Origin: Sphingomonas sp. EC-HK361
GTDB lineage: Bacteria; Pseudomonadota; Alphaproteobacteria; Sphingomonadales; Sphingomonadaceae
Assembly (NCBI RefSeq): GCF_902498785.1
Contig: NZ_LR701494.1
Location: 991,022-1,055,021 of the forward strand
Length of the DNA stretch: 64,000 nucleotides
Reading direction: 5' to 3'
Of the stretch, positions 1 to 2,989 are shown in pieces. Within the stretch, counting starts at the first letter, position 1, and each line of letters opens with the position of its first letter. Position numbers and translations under genes: made by a program. Under the pieces are notes generated by a model. The model saw only the letters and a program-made list of their open reading frames with translations. It had not been told where the DNA came from and made no database searches.

Positions 1-113
1 AGCAGCAGTTCGGCGCGCGCCATCGTCAGCAGCCCCGTCCAGCCCCCGGCATCCAGCCCCGCCACGGTTTCCGGACGGGTCAGCGCACGAGCGAGGAGGC
101 GCGCGTCGCTCAC
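1..113 (-). CDS. Nucleotidyltransferase-like protein, N-terminus only (HPr-rel-A cassette)
   Basis: Only the first 37 or so codons lie in the window; the gene runs off the left edge. It begins with GTG at 113-111, which overlaps the TGA of the upstream kinase gene as GTGA, so the two are translationally coupled. The visible peptide starts M-S-D-A-R-L-L-A-R-A-L and contains a Trp-Thr-Gly-Leu-Leu segment, which fits the helical N-terminus of the nucleotidyltransferases that follow HprK-related kinase A genes in sphingomonads. The catalytic region is not visible, so the family name rests mostly on context (inference). The operon is transcribed leftwards. Confidence 0.45.
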   Translation of the reverse strand, partial: MSDARLLARALTRPETVAGLDAGGWTGLLTMARAELL

Positions 114-955
114 GCCAGCGCCTCGACCGCGGCGATCCCGCTCGCCGTGTCGGGATAATCGATCGCCGTTGCCGGCACATCGGTGACGAAGCGCGTCAGC
201 GCTGCAAATCCCCGCTCGCCGAGCGCGACGTAGTTGGTCGACGCCTGGGTCAGCCGCACGAACGCCTCGCTGGGCGCAACGTCGCGCATGGCGCTTTCGA
301 ACCCGAAGCGCGGAAAGACCAGATGCGCTGGCAGCGCCGGCACCTCCATTGCCGCAAGCGCGCGGTCGTCGGGGCGCAGATGCCGGATATCACCTTTCGG
401 CGTCGCGGCCATCATCGGCCCCCATCGCCCCCCCGGCGCGGCAGCCGCCACGACGGCGATCGCCGCATTCTTCAGGCTGATCGCGCGCGGAAAGGCGTGG
501 ATCATCCCGGTCTCGGGCGAAAGCAGCGCGAACTCGTCCCCCATCAGCCGCCAGCCGCGCGTCATCAGCAGCGCGGCGAGCGTCGATTTGCCCGCACCGG
601 ATTCGCCCGTCAGCACGATCGCGCGGCCATCGCGCTCGACCGTGGCGGCGTGGAGCAGCAGATACTGGCGCTGGCCGATCGCCATCTGCAGGTTCATCGC
701 CATTTCCGCCGCCAGCAAGCCATGCGCGAGCGGCAACGGCGCGGCATCGGGGAGCGTGAAGTCGCCCGAAATCGCGACCTTGGGCCGAAGCCAGCGCCGC
801 CACGGCCGCGGCGCTTCCAGCCGAACGGTGAAATCGGCGATGTCGGGCTTCGGATAGCCCGTATAAAGCGCCTCGATCGCAGCGATCGGCGCGCGCCAGT
901 CGGACCCGACGCGAAAGCCCACCGGCCCGATCCGCACCGAAAAGGCGTGCCGCAT
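110..955 (-). CDS. HprK-related kinase A (HPr-rel-A system)
   Basis: Predicted 281-residue P-loop kinase related to the catalytic domain of HPr kinase/phosphorylase. A Walker A motif GESGAGKST lies near residue 115, after LLHAATVERDG, the usual HprK-like approach to the P-loop, and is followed by GDEFALLSPETG. There is no separate N-terminal HPr-sensing domain, as in the HprK-related kinases found in peptide-modification clusters. The ATG at 955 is preferred; it overlaps the TGA of the PqqD-like gene by one base (TGATG), though a GTG at 958 is possible. Its GTGA overlap with the next gene shows tight coupling. The substrate is unknown; a peptide or small protein encoded nearby is plausible (inference). 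Confidence 0.8.
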   Translation of the reverse strand: MRHAFSVRIGPVGFRVGSDWRAPIAAIEALYTGYPKPDIADFTVRLEAPRPWRRWLRPKVAISGDFTLPDAAPLPLAHGLLAAEMAMNLQMAIGQRQYLLLHAATVERDGRAIVLTGESGAGKSTLAALLMTRGWRLMGDEFALLSPETGMIHAFPRAISLKNAAIAVVAAAAPGGRWGPMMAATPKGDIRHLRPDDRALAAMEVPALPAHLVFPRFGFESAMRDVAPSEAFVRLTQASTNYVALGERGFAALTRFVTDVPATAIDYPDTASGIAAVEALA

Positions 956-1230
956 CACCGGGTCACCGCTTCCACCAGACCGGCGTCGATCAGCTCAGCC
1001 AGCCGCTCGGACAGCGCGTCGATTTCGCCAAGGTCGTAATCGGCCGCCAGCCGCGCGAGCAGTGCATCAGCCGATAGCGGCGCCTCGGCAAGCGCGGCCA
1101 GGATTTCCGGCGCGGGCGCGATGACGAGGTGCGTGGTGCCCGACGGGCGGTGGAAGATCGCGGTGAGAATGTCGAGCGTGATGCTGACCAACGCATCCGG
1201 CGGCGCGGCCCGGTATACGACCGCGCCCAT
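955..1230 (-). CDS. PqqD-family protein of the HPr-rel-A system
   Basis: A 91-residue protein of PqqD size. It has a short beta region (MGAVVYRAAP) and then helices rich in Leu/Ala, with the pattern ALLARLAADYDL...LSERLAELIDAGLVE, as in PqqD-like winged helix-turn-helix domains. Proteins of this fold (RiPP recognition elements) bind leader peptides and present them to modifying enzymes. It lies 5 bp downstream of a small Tat-leader protein and overlaps the kinase start, so the three probably form one transcript. The ATG at 1230 was chosen because a longer in-frame extension would overlap the upstream gene completely. Peptide binding is inferred from family and context. Confidence 0.7.
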   Translation of the reverse strand: MGAVVYRAAPPDALVSITLDILTAIFHRPSGTTHLVIAPAPEILAALAEAPLSADALLARLAADYDLGEIDALSERLAELIDAGLVEAVTR

Positions 1231-1235
1231 GCGTG

Positions 1236-1646
1236 TCAGCCGCGCGGCATCTGCAGCGATGCGAAACAGGTAAAGCCGCTCGTCCCGCGCTGGAGGCGGC
1301 GAATATAGTTCATATAGGCGCGGCTGCGCTGGCTGTCGTAACCGGGCAGCGAACCGCCCGTCGCCATCGCCTGGCGCACCGCCTCGCCCTTGATCGGACG
1401 CGGGGGCGCTGGAAAGGCGCCAGCGGTGTTCGCGGGAACCACCGTTCCGTCCGCCGCGATGTAGCTCCCCGCACGGCCAGCATCTGGCACCGGGATCTCG
1501 CATTGCAGGATCGATGCGTTGGTTTGCGCAAGCGCTGGCCGGATCGACACGACTGTTGCCGCACCCACCGCACCCAGCATCAGGGCACGGCGCCGCGTCG
1601 GGTGCGCATGGCCTGCCGGTGGGGTGCTGTCGGGTTCGTCGCTCAT
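1236..1646 (-). CDS. Small Tat-exported protein leading the HPr-rel-A cassette
   Basis: 136 residues, no recognised domain. Residues 1-17 are hydrophilic, then a twin-arginine-like motif (TRRRALMLGA), a hydrophobic segment and an Ala-Leu-Ala-Gln cleavage site near residue 40, so export by the Tat route is likely. The mature part has two cysteines (in ILQCEIP and FTCFASL), a Pro/Ala-rich middle and a C-terminal Arg-Gly. It is the first gene of the cassette and lies 5 bp before the PqqD-like gene. Its position and size make it a candidate substrate of the kinase/PqqD pair, but nothing in the sequence proves this; it could be an ordinary periplasmic accessory protein. Confidence 0.65.
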   Translation of the reverse strand: MSDEPDSTPPAGHAHPTRRRALMLGAVGAATVVSIRPALAQTNASILQCEIPVPDAGRAGSYIAADGTVVPANTAGAFPAPPRPIKGEAVRQAMATGGSLPGYDSQRSRAYMNYIRRLQRGTSGFTCFASLQMPRG

Positions 1647-1789: not shown

Positions 1790-2989
1790 ATGCTTCAGGT
1801 GCCGGGCCGCTTCATCGTCGCGATCGCGCTGGTCGCCGTGGGCGCCGCCGCCAACCTGTTCCTGCCCGACGGCCTGCAATCCGCGCTCGTATCGCTGATC
1901 GCCGGGATCGCCGCGATCCTGGTCGTCGGGCTGATGGGGGACGAGGAGGACGCCGGCGCCGCCGTCAGCGATGTCGATCAGGCCCTCCACGCCGGTCCGC
2001 TCGACGAAGTGCTCGATGCCATTGCGGAACCGGTCCTGATCGTCAGCGAACGCCGCGTCGCTGCCGCCAATCGCGCCGCGATCGCACTGCTGGGCGGGCA
2101 TGTAATGGGCGAGGATGTGCGCACCGCAATCCGCCACCCCGCCGCAGCGGAGCGGCTGGCAAGCGACGCCGGCGACAGCACGCCAGTGCTGCTCGCCGGG
2201 CTAGGCGCGCCAGACCAGCGGTGGGAAATGCGCGTCACCTCGACGTCGGAAGGACTTAGTGTCGTCCACCTGATCGACCAGAGCGCGCGCCACGCCGCCG
2301 AGCAGATGCGGGTCGATTTCGTCGCTAACGCCAGCCACGAGCTGCGCACGCCGCTCGCCTCGATCCTCGGTTATGTCGAGACGTTGCGCGACGAGGCGGG
2401 CGAGGATGCAGAGGTCCGCGACCGTTTCCTGAAAATCATGTTCGACGAGGCGCGGCGGATGCAGCGGCTTGTCGATGACCTCATTTCTCTCTCGCGGATC
2501 GAATCGGAAAAGCACCGCCCTCCGGAGCGCGCGATCGATCTCGCCGAGCTGATCGAGGGGGTGCGCGACGAACTCGCCAACGATCACGGCGCGCGCGGAC
2601 AGGATATCGTCCTCGAGGCGCCCGCCACCTCGCCGCGCGTCACCGGCGACGAGACGCAAGTGTCGCAGGTCCTCCACAACATCATCGGCAATGCGATGAA
2701 ATATGGCCGCCCCGGCACACCGATCCGCATCACCCTCTCGTCCCCCGCGGGCGGGATGGTGCGGCTGACCGTCGCCGACGAAGGCGAAGGCATCGCGGCC
2801 GAGCACCTCCCGCGGCTGACCGAACGCTTCTACCGCGTCGATGCAGGGCGCAGCCGCGCGCTTGGCGGGACCGGACTCGGCCTTGCGATCGTCAAGCACA
2901 TCGTCGAGCGGCATCGCGGACGGCTGGAAATCGCGAGCACGCCCGGCGTCGGCACGCGCGTATCGATCCTGCTGCCGGTCACCGCCTGA
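1790..2989 (+). CDS. phoR: Phosphate regulon sensor histidine kinase PhoR
   Basis: 399-residue membrane sensor kinase that phosphorylates PhoB when phosphate is scarce. Two hydrophobic helices (about residues 7-24 and 29-48) anchor it, a PAS-like region covers about 65-165, and the HisKA domain carries ANASHELRTPLASI with the phospho-acceptor His at about 183. The ATP-binding domain shows an N box (HNIIGNAMKYG), G1 (DEGEGIA), an F box (ERFYRVD) and G2 (GGTGLGLAIVK). It is the first gene of the phoR-pstSCAB-phoU-phoB block and is separated from pstS by a Pho box. Lack of a large periplasmic loop is usual for PhoR, which senses through the Pst transporter and PhoU. Confidence 0.93.
   Translation: MLQVPGRFIVAIALVAVGAAANLFLPDGLQSALVSLIAGIAAILVVGLMGDEEDAGAAVSDVDQALHAGPLDEVLDAIAEPVLIVSERRVAAANRAAIALLGGHVMGEDVRTAIRHPAAAERLASDAGDSTPVLLAGLGAPDQRWEMRVTSTSEGLSVVHLIDQSARHAAEQMRVDFVANASHELRTPLASILGYVETLRDEAGEDAEVRDRFLKIMFDEARRMQRLVDDLISLSRIESEKHRPPERAIDLAELIEGVRDELANDHGARGQDIVLEAPATSPRVTGDETQVSQVLHNIIGNAMKYGRPGTPIRITLSSPAGGMVRLTVADEGEGIAAEHLPRLTERFYRVDAGRSRALGGTGLGLAIVKHIVERHRGRLEIASTPGVGTRVSILLPVTA

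Follow-up and report, generated by a model that had tools for sequence, protein, structure and literature searches.

A candidate leader-guided serine-modification cassette for Tat-exported proteins in Sphingomonas and other proteobacteria

The window analyzed here is a stretch of 64,000 nucleotides from Sphingomonas sp. EC-HK361 (NCBI RefSeq assembly GCF_902498785.1, contig NZ_LR701494.1, positions 991,022 to 1,055,021 of the forward strand), and at its left end, on the minus strand, lies a four-gene cassette whose first gene encodes a small protein with a twin-arginine translocation (Tat) leader that is very probably, as judged from sequence comparisons, the substrate of the cassette enzymes. 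The initial annotation had proposed four genes in the order Tat-leader protein, PqqD-like protein, HprK-related kinase and nucleotidyltransferase (NTase)-like protein, and all four were found in that order at 1-1646. The first gene (1236..1646) does encode the 136-residue Tat-leader protein it had described, followed by a stop codon, and this predicted substrate belongs to no described family. Its leader (residues 1-40, 1527..1646) consists of an acidic n-region, the arginines RRR, a hydrophobic stretch and the residues VSIRPALA before a predicted signal peptidase site, whose placement after the leader is suggested by the AxA pattern. The C-terminal tail FTCFASLQMPRG (residues 125-136, 1239..1274) carries a TCFAS motif. 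Two serines are candidate phosphoacceptors, Ser130 within that motif (codon at 1257..1259) and Ser45, four residues before Cys49 (codon at 1512..1514), and both are invariant in the A1 substrate alignment; their role would be to accept the modification discussed below. Five nucleotides downstream of the substrate gene begins the gene for the PqqD-like protein (955..1230, 91 residues), a predicted RRE, that is, a recognition element of ribosomally synthesized and post-translationally modified peptides (RiPPs). The ATG of the HprK-related kinase A (110..955, 281 residues from ATG at 955, with an alternative GTG start at 958) overlaps the PqqD stop codon, and the GTG at 113 of the fourth gene (1..113, 37 codons in the window) overlaps the kinase stop codon.

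By two curated models the window cassette is an HPr-rel-A system of NCBIfam, in which a peptide chaperone is named: the kinase scores 243.2 bits against TIGR04352 (HprK_rel_A, cut-off 200) and the PqqD-like protein 54.8 bits against TIGR04353 (cut-off 35), so that both are members over the curated cut-offs. The 37-codon fragment of the fourth gene gave no family match of its own in Pfam or NCBIfam; it is called PF14907-like because the gene at the same place in the closest relative found, Sphingomonas mali (L001:10763-11773), scores 162 bits to PF14907. The same gene order is present in Sphingomonas parapaucimobilis (NZ_CP155749), with a hypothetical protein annotated as the product of the first gene. 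The small protein matched none of the NCBIfam families at E<=1, and in Pfam a Tat-signal model alone, weakly (PF10399, E 0.022). Eight other partners scanned in both libraries gave nothing significant, and none of the NCBIfam models matched any substrate scanned significantly. The AlphaFold model of the window protein is moderate (mean predicted local distance difference test score, pLDDT, 68.3), being better in the core (residues 61-120) and of low confidence in the leader and in tail residues 121-136 (about 50); the latter is compatible with an accessible C-terminus, low confidence being no proof of disorder. A Foldseek search of this model against the PDB returned no match with E<=0.001 (best E 5.0), and the substrate alignment, when searched against PDB sequences, yielded chance matches only. 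The initial annotation had also described HPr-rel-A as a family name without established function; a substrate for it was found neither in the libraries nor in the papers searched. HPr-rel-A was not mentioned in the literature searched, which likewise held no paper joining PqqD, twin-arginine, kinase and leader peptide and none joining HprK, lasso peptide, nucleotidyltransferase and kinase.

The PqqD-like protein was modeled with confidence (mean pLDDT 93.5), and its best PDB match was TbiB1 with leader (5v1v; Foldseek probability 1.00, E 2.8e-4, template modeling score 0.66). The six best matches were all lasso RREs solved with leader peptides, one of them at E below 0.001 and the rest at up to 0.013; RiPP enzymes that bear an RRE came next. 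In a search of the PDB with a PqqD profile, two lasso RREs were found, TfuB1 (E 0.003) and TbiB1 (E 0.014). A match of the same profile to the repeat protein CpcN (E 1.3e-4), ranked above these two, was judged spurious. The PqqD-like protein is thus confidently predicted to have the RRE fold expected of the leader-presenting type to which it had been assigned, and it would be expected to bind a leader. The kinase profile aligned with HPr kinase/phosphorylase over the P-loop region, including the His, the Walker-A Lys and the Asp. The residues H103, K124, D141 and E142 are present in 137/137 kinase sequences, so that the description of the kinase as HprK-like is borne out by retention of the His, Lys and Asp of HprK. 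Unlike HprK/P, the window kinase has a glutamate in place of the second aspartate, scores 25.5 bits against a family cut-off of 240, and lies in an operon with an RRE and an NTase; the PadeK and LppK type of kinase likewise has the set His-Lys-Asp-Asp, in contrast to H103, K124, D141 and then E142 here. An NTase gene (PF14907), always on the same strand, was found in 130/137 kinase loci searched, and 125 to 127 of these 130 retain its GRxxxDxD motif; a PDB sequence search with the NTase found nothing significant. A gene for a sulfotransferase with tetratricopeptide repeats (TPR) occurs in 11/46 loci outside type A (L158, L165-L167, L173, L175-L177, L180-L182), and in L176, L177, L181 and L182 it is present with no NTase detected.

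When genomes were scanned with the kinase, 84 loci came up, of which the best 80 were retained, nearly all titled sphingomonads, and both a homologue of the small protein (E 3.8e-21 to 6e-57) and a PqqD gene were found in 80/80; since the homologue is present at every one of these kinase loci, the window cassette is not a chance assembly. TIGR04352 was exceeded in 8/289 genomes drawn from the class and 61/398 drawn from the phylum, 67 genomes in all, and regions were taken from 56 of these and from four genomes with weaker kinases. Together with the 80 loci of the scan these make up the first sets of 136 kinase loci, at least two of which are the same place twice (L196/L002 and L198/L074). A Tat-leader frame stood upstream of the kinase in 124/136 loci by regular expression and in 130/136 after inspection. 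Among the six misses, L054 retains the core but has no leader that can be read, the partner of L187 and that of L201 lie elsewhere in the genome, and the other three are taken up below. Four spurious frames (L258.1, L294.1, L296.1, L299.0) and one wrong pick (L168) were dropped, the first frame alone was used in L313, L315, L318, L322 and L335, where the second frames were unrelated, and frames were set by inspection in L006, L148, L155, L156, L174, L186, L190, L191 and L314. The same Tat test was passed by 124/136 kinase anchors against 97/837 other genes of these loci, and when CxxS was also required the figures became 112/136 against 3/837.

Similar results were obtained in a survey of 147 genomes of the order to which S. 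mali belongs. The kinase exceeded its cut-off in 79 genomes and the substrate profile A1 matched in 34, all of them among the 79 (hypergeometric 1e-11, ignoring kinship); 19 of the 23 strong A1 matches adjoin the kinase by coordinates. Tat-leader proteins of other kinds are found at the further loci: for L246-L296, 51 loci of which one is from an A1 genome, such a protein stood upstream in 51/51, 49 by rule and two by inspection. Leaving G749, G691, G695 and G674 outside the count, the partner was found in 75/75 examinable kinase genomes, adjoining the kinase in 70 and apart from it in five (G484, G716, G733, G755, G537). The separated partners are supported by gene calls in G716, G733 and G537 and by the profile match in G484 and G755, and in G537 the substrate and PqqD genes lie together on a different contig from the kinase. 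For an out-of-sample set, 34 loci with previously uninspected surroundings from two orders and the remaining part of a third, the rule, motif and leader pattern were fixed beforehand; one locus had no upstream sequence. In the 33 testable loci the partner was found in 30, of which 27 had it upstream of the kinase (26 by rule, L314 by inspection) and three downstream of it, these last in a wider search. All of these surveys count genomes, not independent events. More than one substrate was observed in some cases (L281, L285, L295, L305), either as tandem paralogues upstream of a single kinase or with an additional gene on a contig other than that of the kinase, and one kinase may serve several proteins.

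It was also considered whether the Tat protein is an unmodified exported partner, in which case a small molecule or the precursor of a polysaccharide would be the target of the kinase and NTase, and something else would be recruited by the PqqD protein. XrtA/PEP-CTERM exopolysaccharide genes in 25/46 loci outside type A are in keeping with such a role, as is L170, where a glycosyltransferase gene lies directly upstream of the kinase and there is no small protein or PqqD. Nevertheless, the three XrtA genes searched were found in 0/90 type-A loci, the partner persists away from the kinase in the five genomes named above, and otherwise unrelated cores have leader and motif in common. RREs are established to bind peptide leaders in lasso and other RiPP systems, which also argues against this explanation, and we consider it unlikely.

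The initial annotation had held that the small protein would not be the substrate if it proved absent from, or unrelated beside, other HPr-rel-A kinases. The counts given above show that it is rarely absent (130/136, 75/75 and 30/33). The cores are often unrelated, as the 182 substrates of the first sets fell into 25 clusters by BLASTP of their cores, which on a strict reading of that condition would tell against the proposal; what is kept is the leader and, in most cases, the motif [ST]CxxS. We did not take this combination as a refutation because leader-guided modification systems behave in this way. When the profiles of class A and class B, and of class B and class C, were compared, the alignment was confined to the leader (E 2.8e-6 and 8e-6). 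In class B the leaders had a mean pairwise identity of 0.62, compared with 0.27 for the cores and 0.58 for the C-terminal tails, and R37, R38, K42, P49 and T53 were invariant in its 22 leader sequences; in the A1 alignment of 25 sequences R19, L22, G25, A26, P37 and A40 were invariant. When the class-B leader profile was run on six substrates with odd cores, five scored 20.9 to 48.0 bits and one 1.7, against 8.2 bits for the best of 20 control Tat leaders. The strict leader pattern, which like the motif had been shaped on the first data, fitted 23/27 out-of-sample substrates and 0/20 control Tat leaders. Very acidic stretches were also seen, with DDDD runs in 19/182 substrates (for example L275, L288, L294), as were Gly/Asn-rich linkers in the core.

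The motif [ST]CxxS with a hydrophobic residue after it was found in 168/182 first-set substrates, in 164 of them within the last 36 residues (0.66 expected by shuffling), and overall in 181/212 substrates, mostly near the C-terminus. It occurs across clusters without detectable core similarity, with the serine at a fixed spacing from the cysteine, and threonine in place of the motif serine was found in none of 209 substrates searched. Another cysteine lies shortly after the leader in 168/168 motif-bearing first-set substrates (68.9 expected), and the number of cysteines is even in 166/168, which points to disulfides, as in disulfide-bonded exported proteins. As cysteine and serine are both conserved across the substrate classes, it could be the cysteine that is functional, with CxxS serving a secreted protein in redox chemistry or in holding a cofactor, and with the enzymes maturing this site. 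We regard this as very improbable. Four loci (L179, L324, L325, L344) seem, when aligned by eye, to lose the motif cysteine and keep the serine (AYTSI, AFTSL, AYTSL, ALQSF), the even cysteine count speaks for disulfides, and the neighboring enzymes are an NTase and a kinase of the serine type. A thioredoxin-type reading of CxxS was rejected, as such a fold would need more than the 5 residues (median) that come after the motif.

Taken together, the cassette order, the near-constant partnership, the common leader, the common motif and the intact catalytic residues form the sequence basis of a model in which the cassette uses a leader to direct the modification of a serine in Tat-exported proteins, a proposal in which we place rather more belief than doubt. 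Leader binding, phosphorylation, its site, the order of steps and the disulfide are what we infer within it. The Tat signal peptide of the small protein would double as a RiPP-type leader, to which the PqqD-like RRE would bind, bringing the finished, unexported protein to the HprK-related kinase. The kinase would then add at least one phosphate to a conserved serine. The likeliest acceptor is the serine in the C-terminal [ST]CxxS motif (Ser130 here), the main alternative being Ser45 just behind the leader. The NTase, or the TPR-sulfotransferase in some relatives, would act next on the phosphoserine, after which the modified protein would be exported through Tat, signal peptidase would remove the leader, and the motif cysteine could pair with a cysteine near the mature N-terminus. 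Since a C-terminal residue can be modified only after translation ends, the scheme would fit a post-translational exporter such as Tat. The phosphorylation step is probably correct by analogy with PadeK, PsmN and LppK.

Several observations weigh against this model. The loci L147, L168 and L170 have no Tat-leader partner upstream of the kinase, no partner was found in the out-of-sample genomes G349, G400 and G308 in regions of 12-14 kb, and an iterated profile found no PqqD-like frame in 9/136 loci. In the class-B leader profile 47/48 type-A leaders scored no higher than the best control Tat leader (best 7.3, with one exception at 12.5), as did eight of ten class-C leaders, and the strict leader pattern, chosen post hoc, fits 119/182 in-sample leaders. 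Only 13/27 out-of-sample upstream substrates carry the C-terminal motif (0.29 expected); 10 have [ST]PGYW after a cysteine and 4 have neither. Deletion of the NTase in the linear polyphosphorylated peptide (LPP) system, one of the known systems compared below, left the detected products unchanged (PMC13381572). Lastly, a serine lies at most 6 residues before the first cysteine in 181/181 motif-bearing substrates (about 77 by a crude shuffle), most commonly four residues before it, as with Ser45 in the window, and in 21/31 motif-less substrates the leader is directly followed by Cys-x(2,3)-Ser-[GAS] (1.17 expected, the pattern being post hoc), an element found there in 2/181 motif-bearing substrates. 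One modification site would thus not serve all substrates, and a CxxS-like element may sit at either end of the protein.

These last findings bear on the choice of residue. Given the second serine before the first cysteine, the motif serine cannot be regarded as the sole hydroxyl under conservation, and by this measure Ser45 appears as good a candidate as Ser130; our confidence in Ser130 was lowered because of this second, equally conserved serine and the CxxS-like element at either end. The modification could therefore be real and fall on another residue, above all the serine after the leader, the C-terminal motif then having its part in folding or in the final target. The invariance of Ser45 in A1, the element after the leader in motif-less substrates, and the activity of LppK on Ser3 of its core (PMC13381572) would all suit such a site. 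On the other hand, the C-terminal serine is kept at its fixed spacing from the cysteine through dissimilar core clusters, and the low model confidence of the tail is as expected of an exposed one, so that modification away from the C-terminus is rather doubtful in our view, and Ser130 remains the preferred site. Substrates with C...[ST]PGYW, usually with Cys-x(2,3)-Ser-[GA] after the leader and lacking the C-terminal motif, form a class of their own (L308-L313, L315, L316, L320, L322, L343 and others); two of this class that were scanned (L156, L191) had no Pfam or NCBIfam family.

Of the known systems, the cassette can be set beside the LPP and the phosphorylated lasso peptides; the comparisons draw on PMC13381572 and PMC9266682, respectively. 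LPP were reported in 2026 and were, together with the paeninodins, stated to be restricted to Bacillota, and LppK polyphosphorylates Ser3 of the linear precursor and does not accept Thr (PMC13381572). In a word search of that text there was no mention of twin-arginine or Pseudomonadota. Like the LPP loci, the Tat cassette has an RRE, an HprK-like kinase, a nucleotide triphosphate transferase and a conserved N-terminal leader with a variable remainder; its leader is predicted to be removed by a signal-peptidase-type enzyme, as in LPP, and the polysaccharide loci in which LPP is often found have their parallel in 25/46 loci outside type A. LPP systems have their own SpI-like leader peptidase and MsbA-like transporter, a YxxP leader and modification at Ser3, whereas the Tat cassette has a Tat-signal leader, protein partners, many with a conserved C-terminal serine, and Pseudomonadota hosts. 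None of the four genes encodes an SpI-like peptidase or MsbA-like transporter, and in S. parapaucimobilis neither is encoded by any of the ten genes annotated within 4 kb, other flanks being unsearched with models; a Tat leader would make a dedicated peptidase and transporter unnecessary.

In the phosphorylated lasso peptides of the paeninodin and pseudomycoidin type, PadeK phosphorylates the C-terminal serine of the lasso precursor and PsmN adds hexoses to the phosphoserine (PMC9266682). The Tat cassette resembles this type in having a B1/PqqD-type RRE, an HprK-like kinase and then a nucleotidyltransferase, and the C-terminal serine on which the paeninodin-type kinase acts has its counterpart in the site predicted here. 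Unlike the lasso type, the four genes include neither a macrolactam cyclase nor a B2 peptidase, and the partner is a Tat-leader protein, not a threaded peptide. The asparagine-synthase gene of L154, the one locus scanned, proved to be the XrtA/exopolysaccharide amidotransferase TIGR03108 (1018 bits) rather than a lasso cyclase (239.5 bits against a cut-off of 525), and no cyclase is annotated near the S. parapaucimobilis cassette; membership in the lasso peptides is thus unsupported, B2 peptidases not having been searched for. The cassette looks like a proteobacterial, whole-protein counterpart of LPP and phosphorylated lasso peptides.

In broader terms, widespread Gram-negative exported proteins might be modified before export by a RiPP-type machine that uses the Tat signal peptide as its leader, and the tailored serine may link the protein to surface polysaccharide, an extension for which we judge the prospects to be evenly balanced. 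The same segment would recruit the RRE, kinase and NTase and then direct translocation, and the serine would carry a phosphate, or a phosphosugar after the NTase has acted. For the HPr-rel-A family a substrate gene, two candidate acceptor serines and a candidate leader can now be named, and the four-gene cassette occurs in many proteobacteria. Related chemistry is known for small peptides in other bacteria, not for exported proteins of this kind. If the model is true, leader-guided modification would extend from small peptides to whole Tat-exported proteins, the use of the Tat route would have its reason in a C-terminal residue that must be modified before export, and LPP, described as restricted to Bacillota, would have a proteobacterial counterpart.

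Outside the cassette, the divergent neighbor at 1790..2989 on the plus strand encodes a PhoR-like histidine kinase (TIGR02966, 309.9 bits, below the cut-off of 334.2), and 69/80 loci (L001-L080) have a divergent PhoR-like frame no more than 2.5 kb upstream of the HprK-related kinase. In L301, L302 and L304, where the substrate is separated from the HprK-related kinase, it adjoins a similar histidine kinase, the match to the PhoR model having been checked for L304. Regulation by phosphate (Pho) is not claimed, as a two-repeat Pho-box consensus was barely above shuffled DNA upstream of the substrates. A record titled Bacillus sp. 2B10 (RPSH01000014.1, L020) carries a sphingomonad-like cassette with a kinase 69% identical to that of the window, and is perhaps mislabeled or contaminated. 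On a Vibrio alfacsensis plasmid (L306:3764-6831) a Tat-leader protein, an open reading frame of 84 residues, an HprK-related kinase A and an NTase follow in the same order, and the 84-residue frame, which is unannotated, matches the PqqD profile weakly (12.9 bits). At L202:7849-10407 a PqqD domain is fused to an HprK-like kinase, followed by a gene with an NTase-like start and adjoined by an 81-residue Tat peptide (RRRFLATCGKFA...), a relative of which, 89 residues long, lies near the kinase of L203 (L203:5892-6161); these HprK-like systems are possibly a second, more distant family with the same logic.

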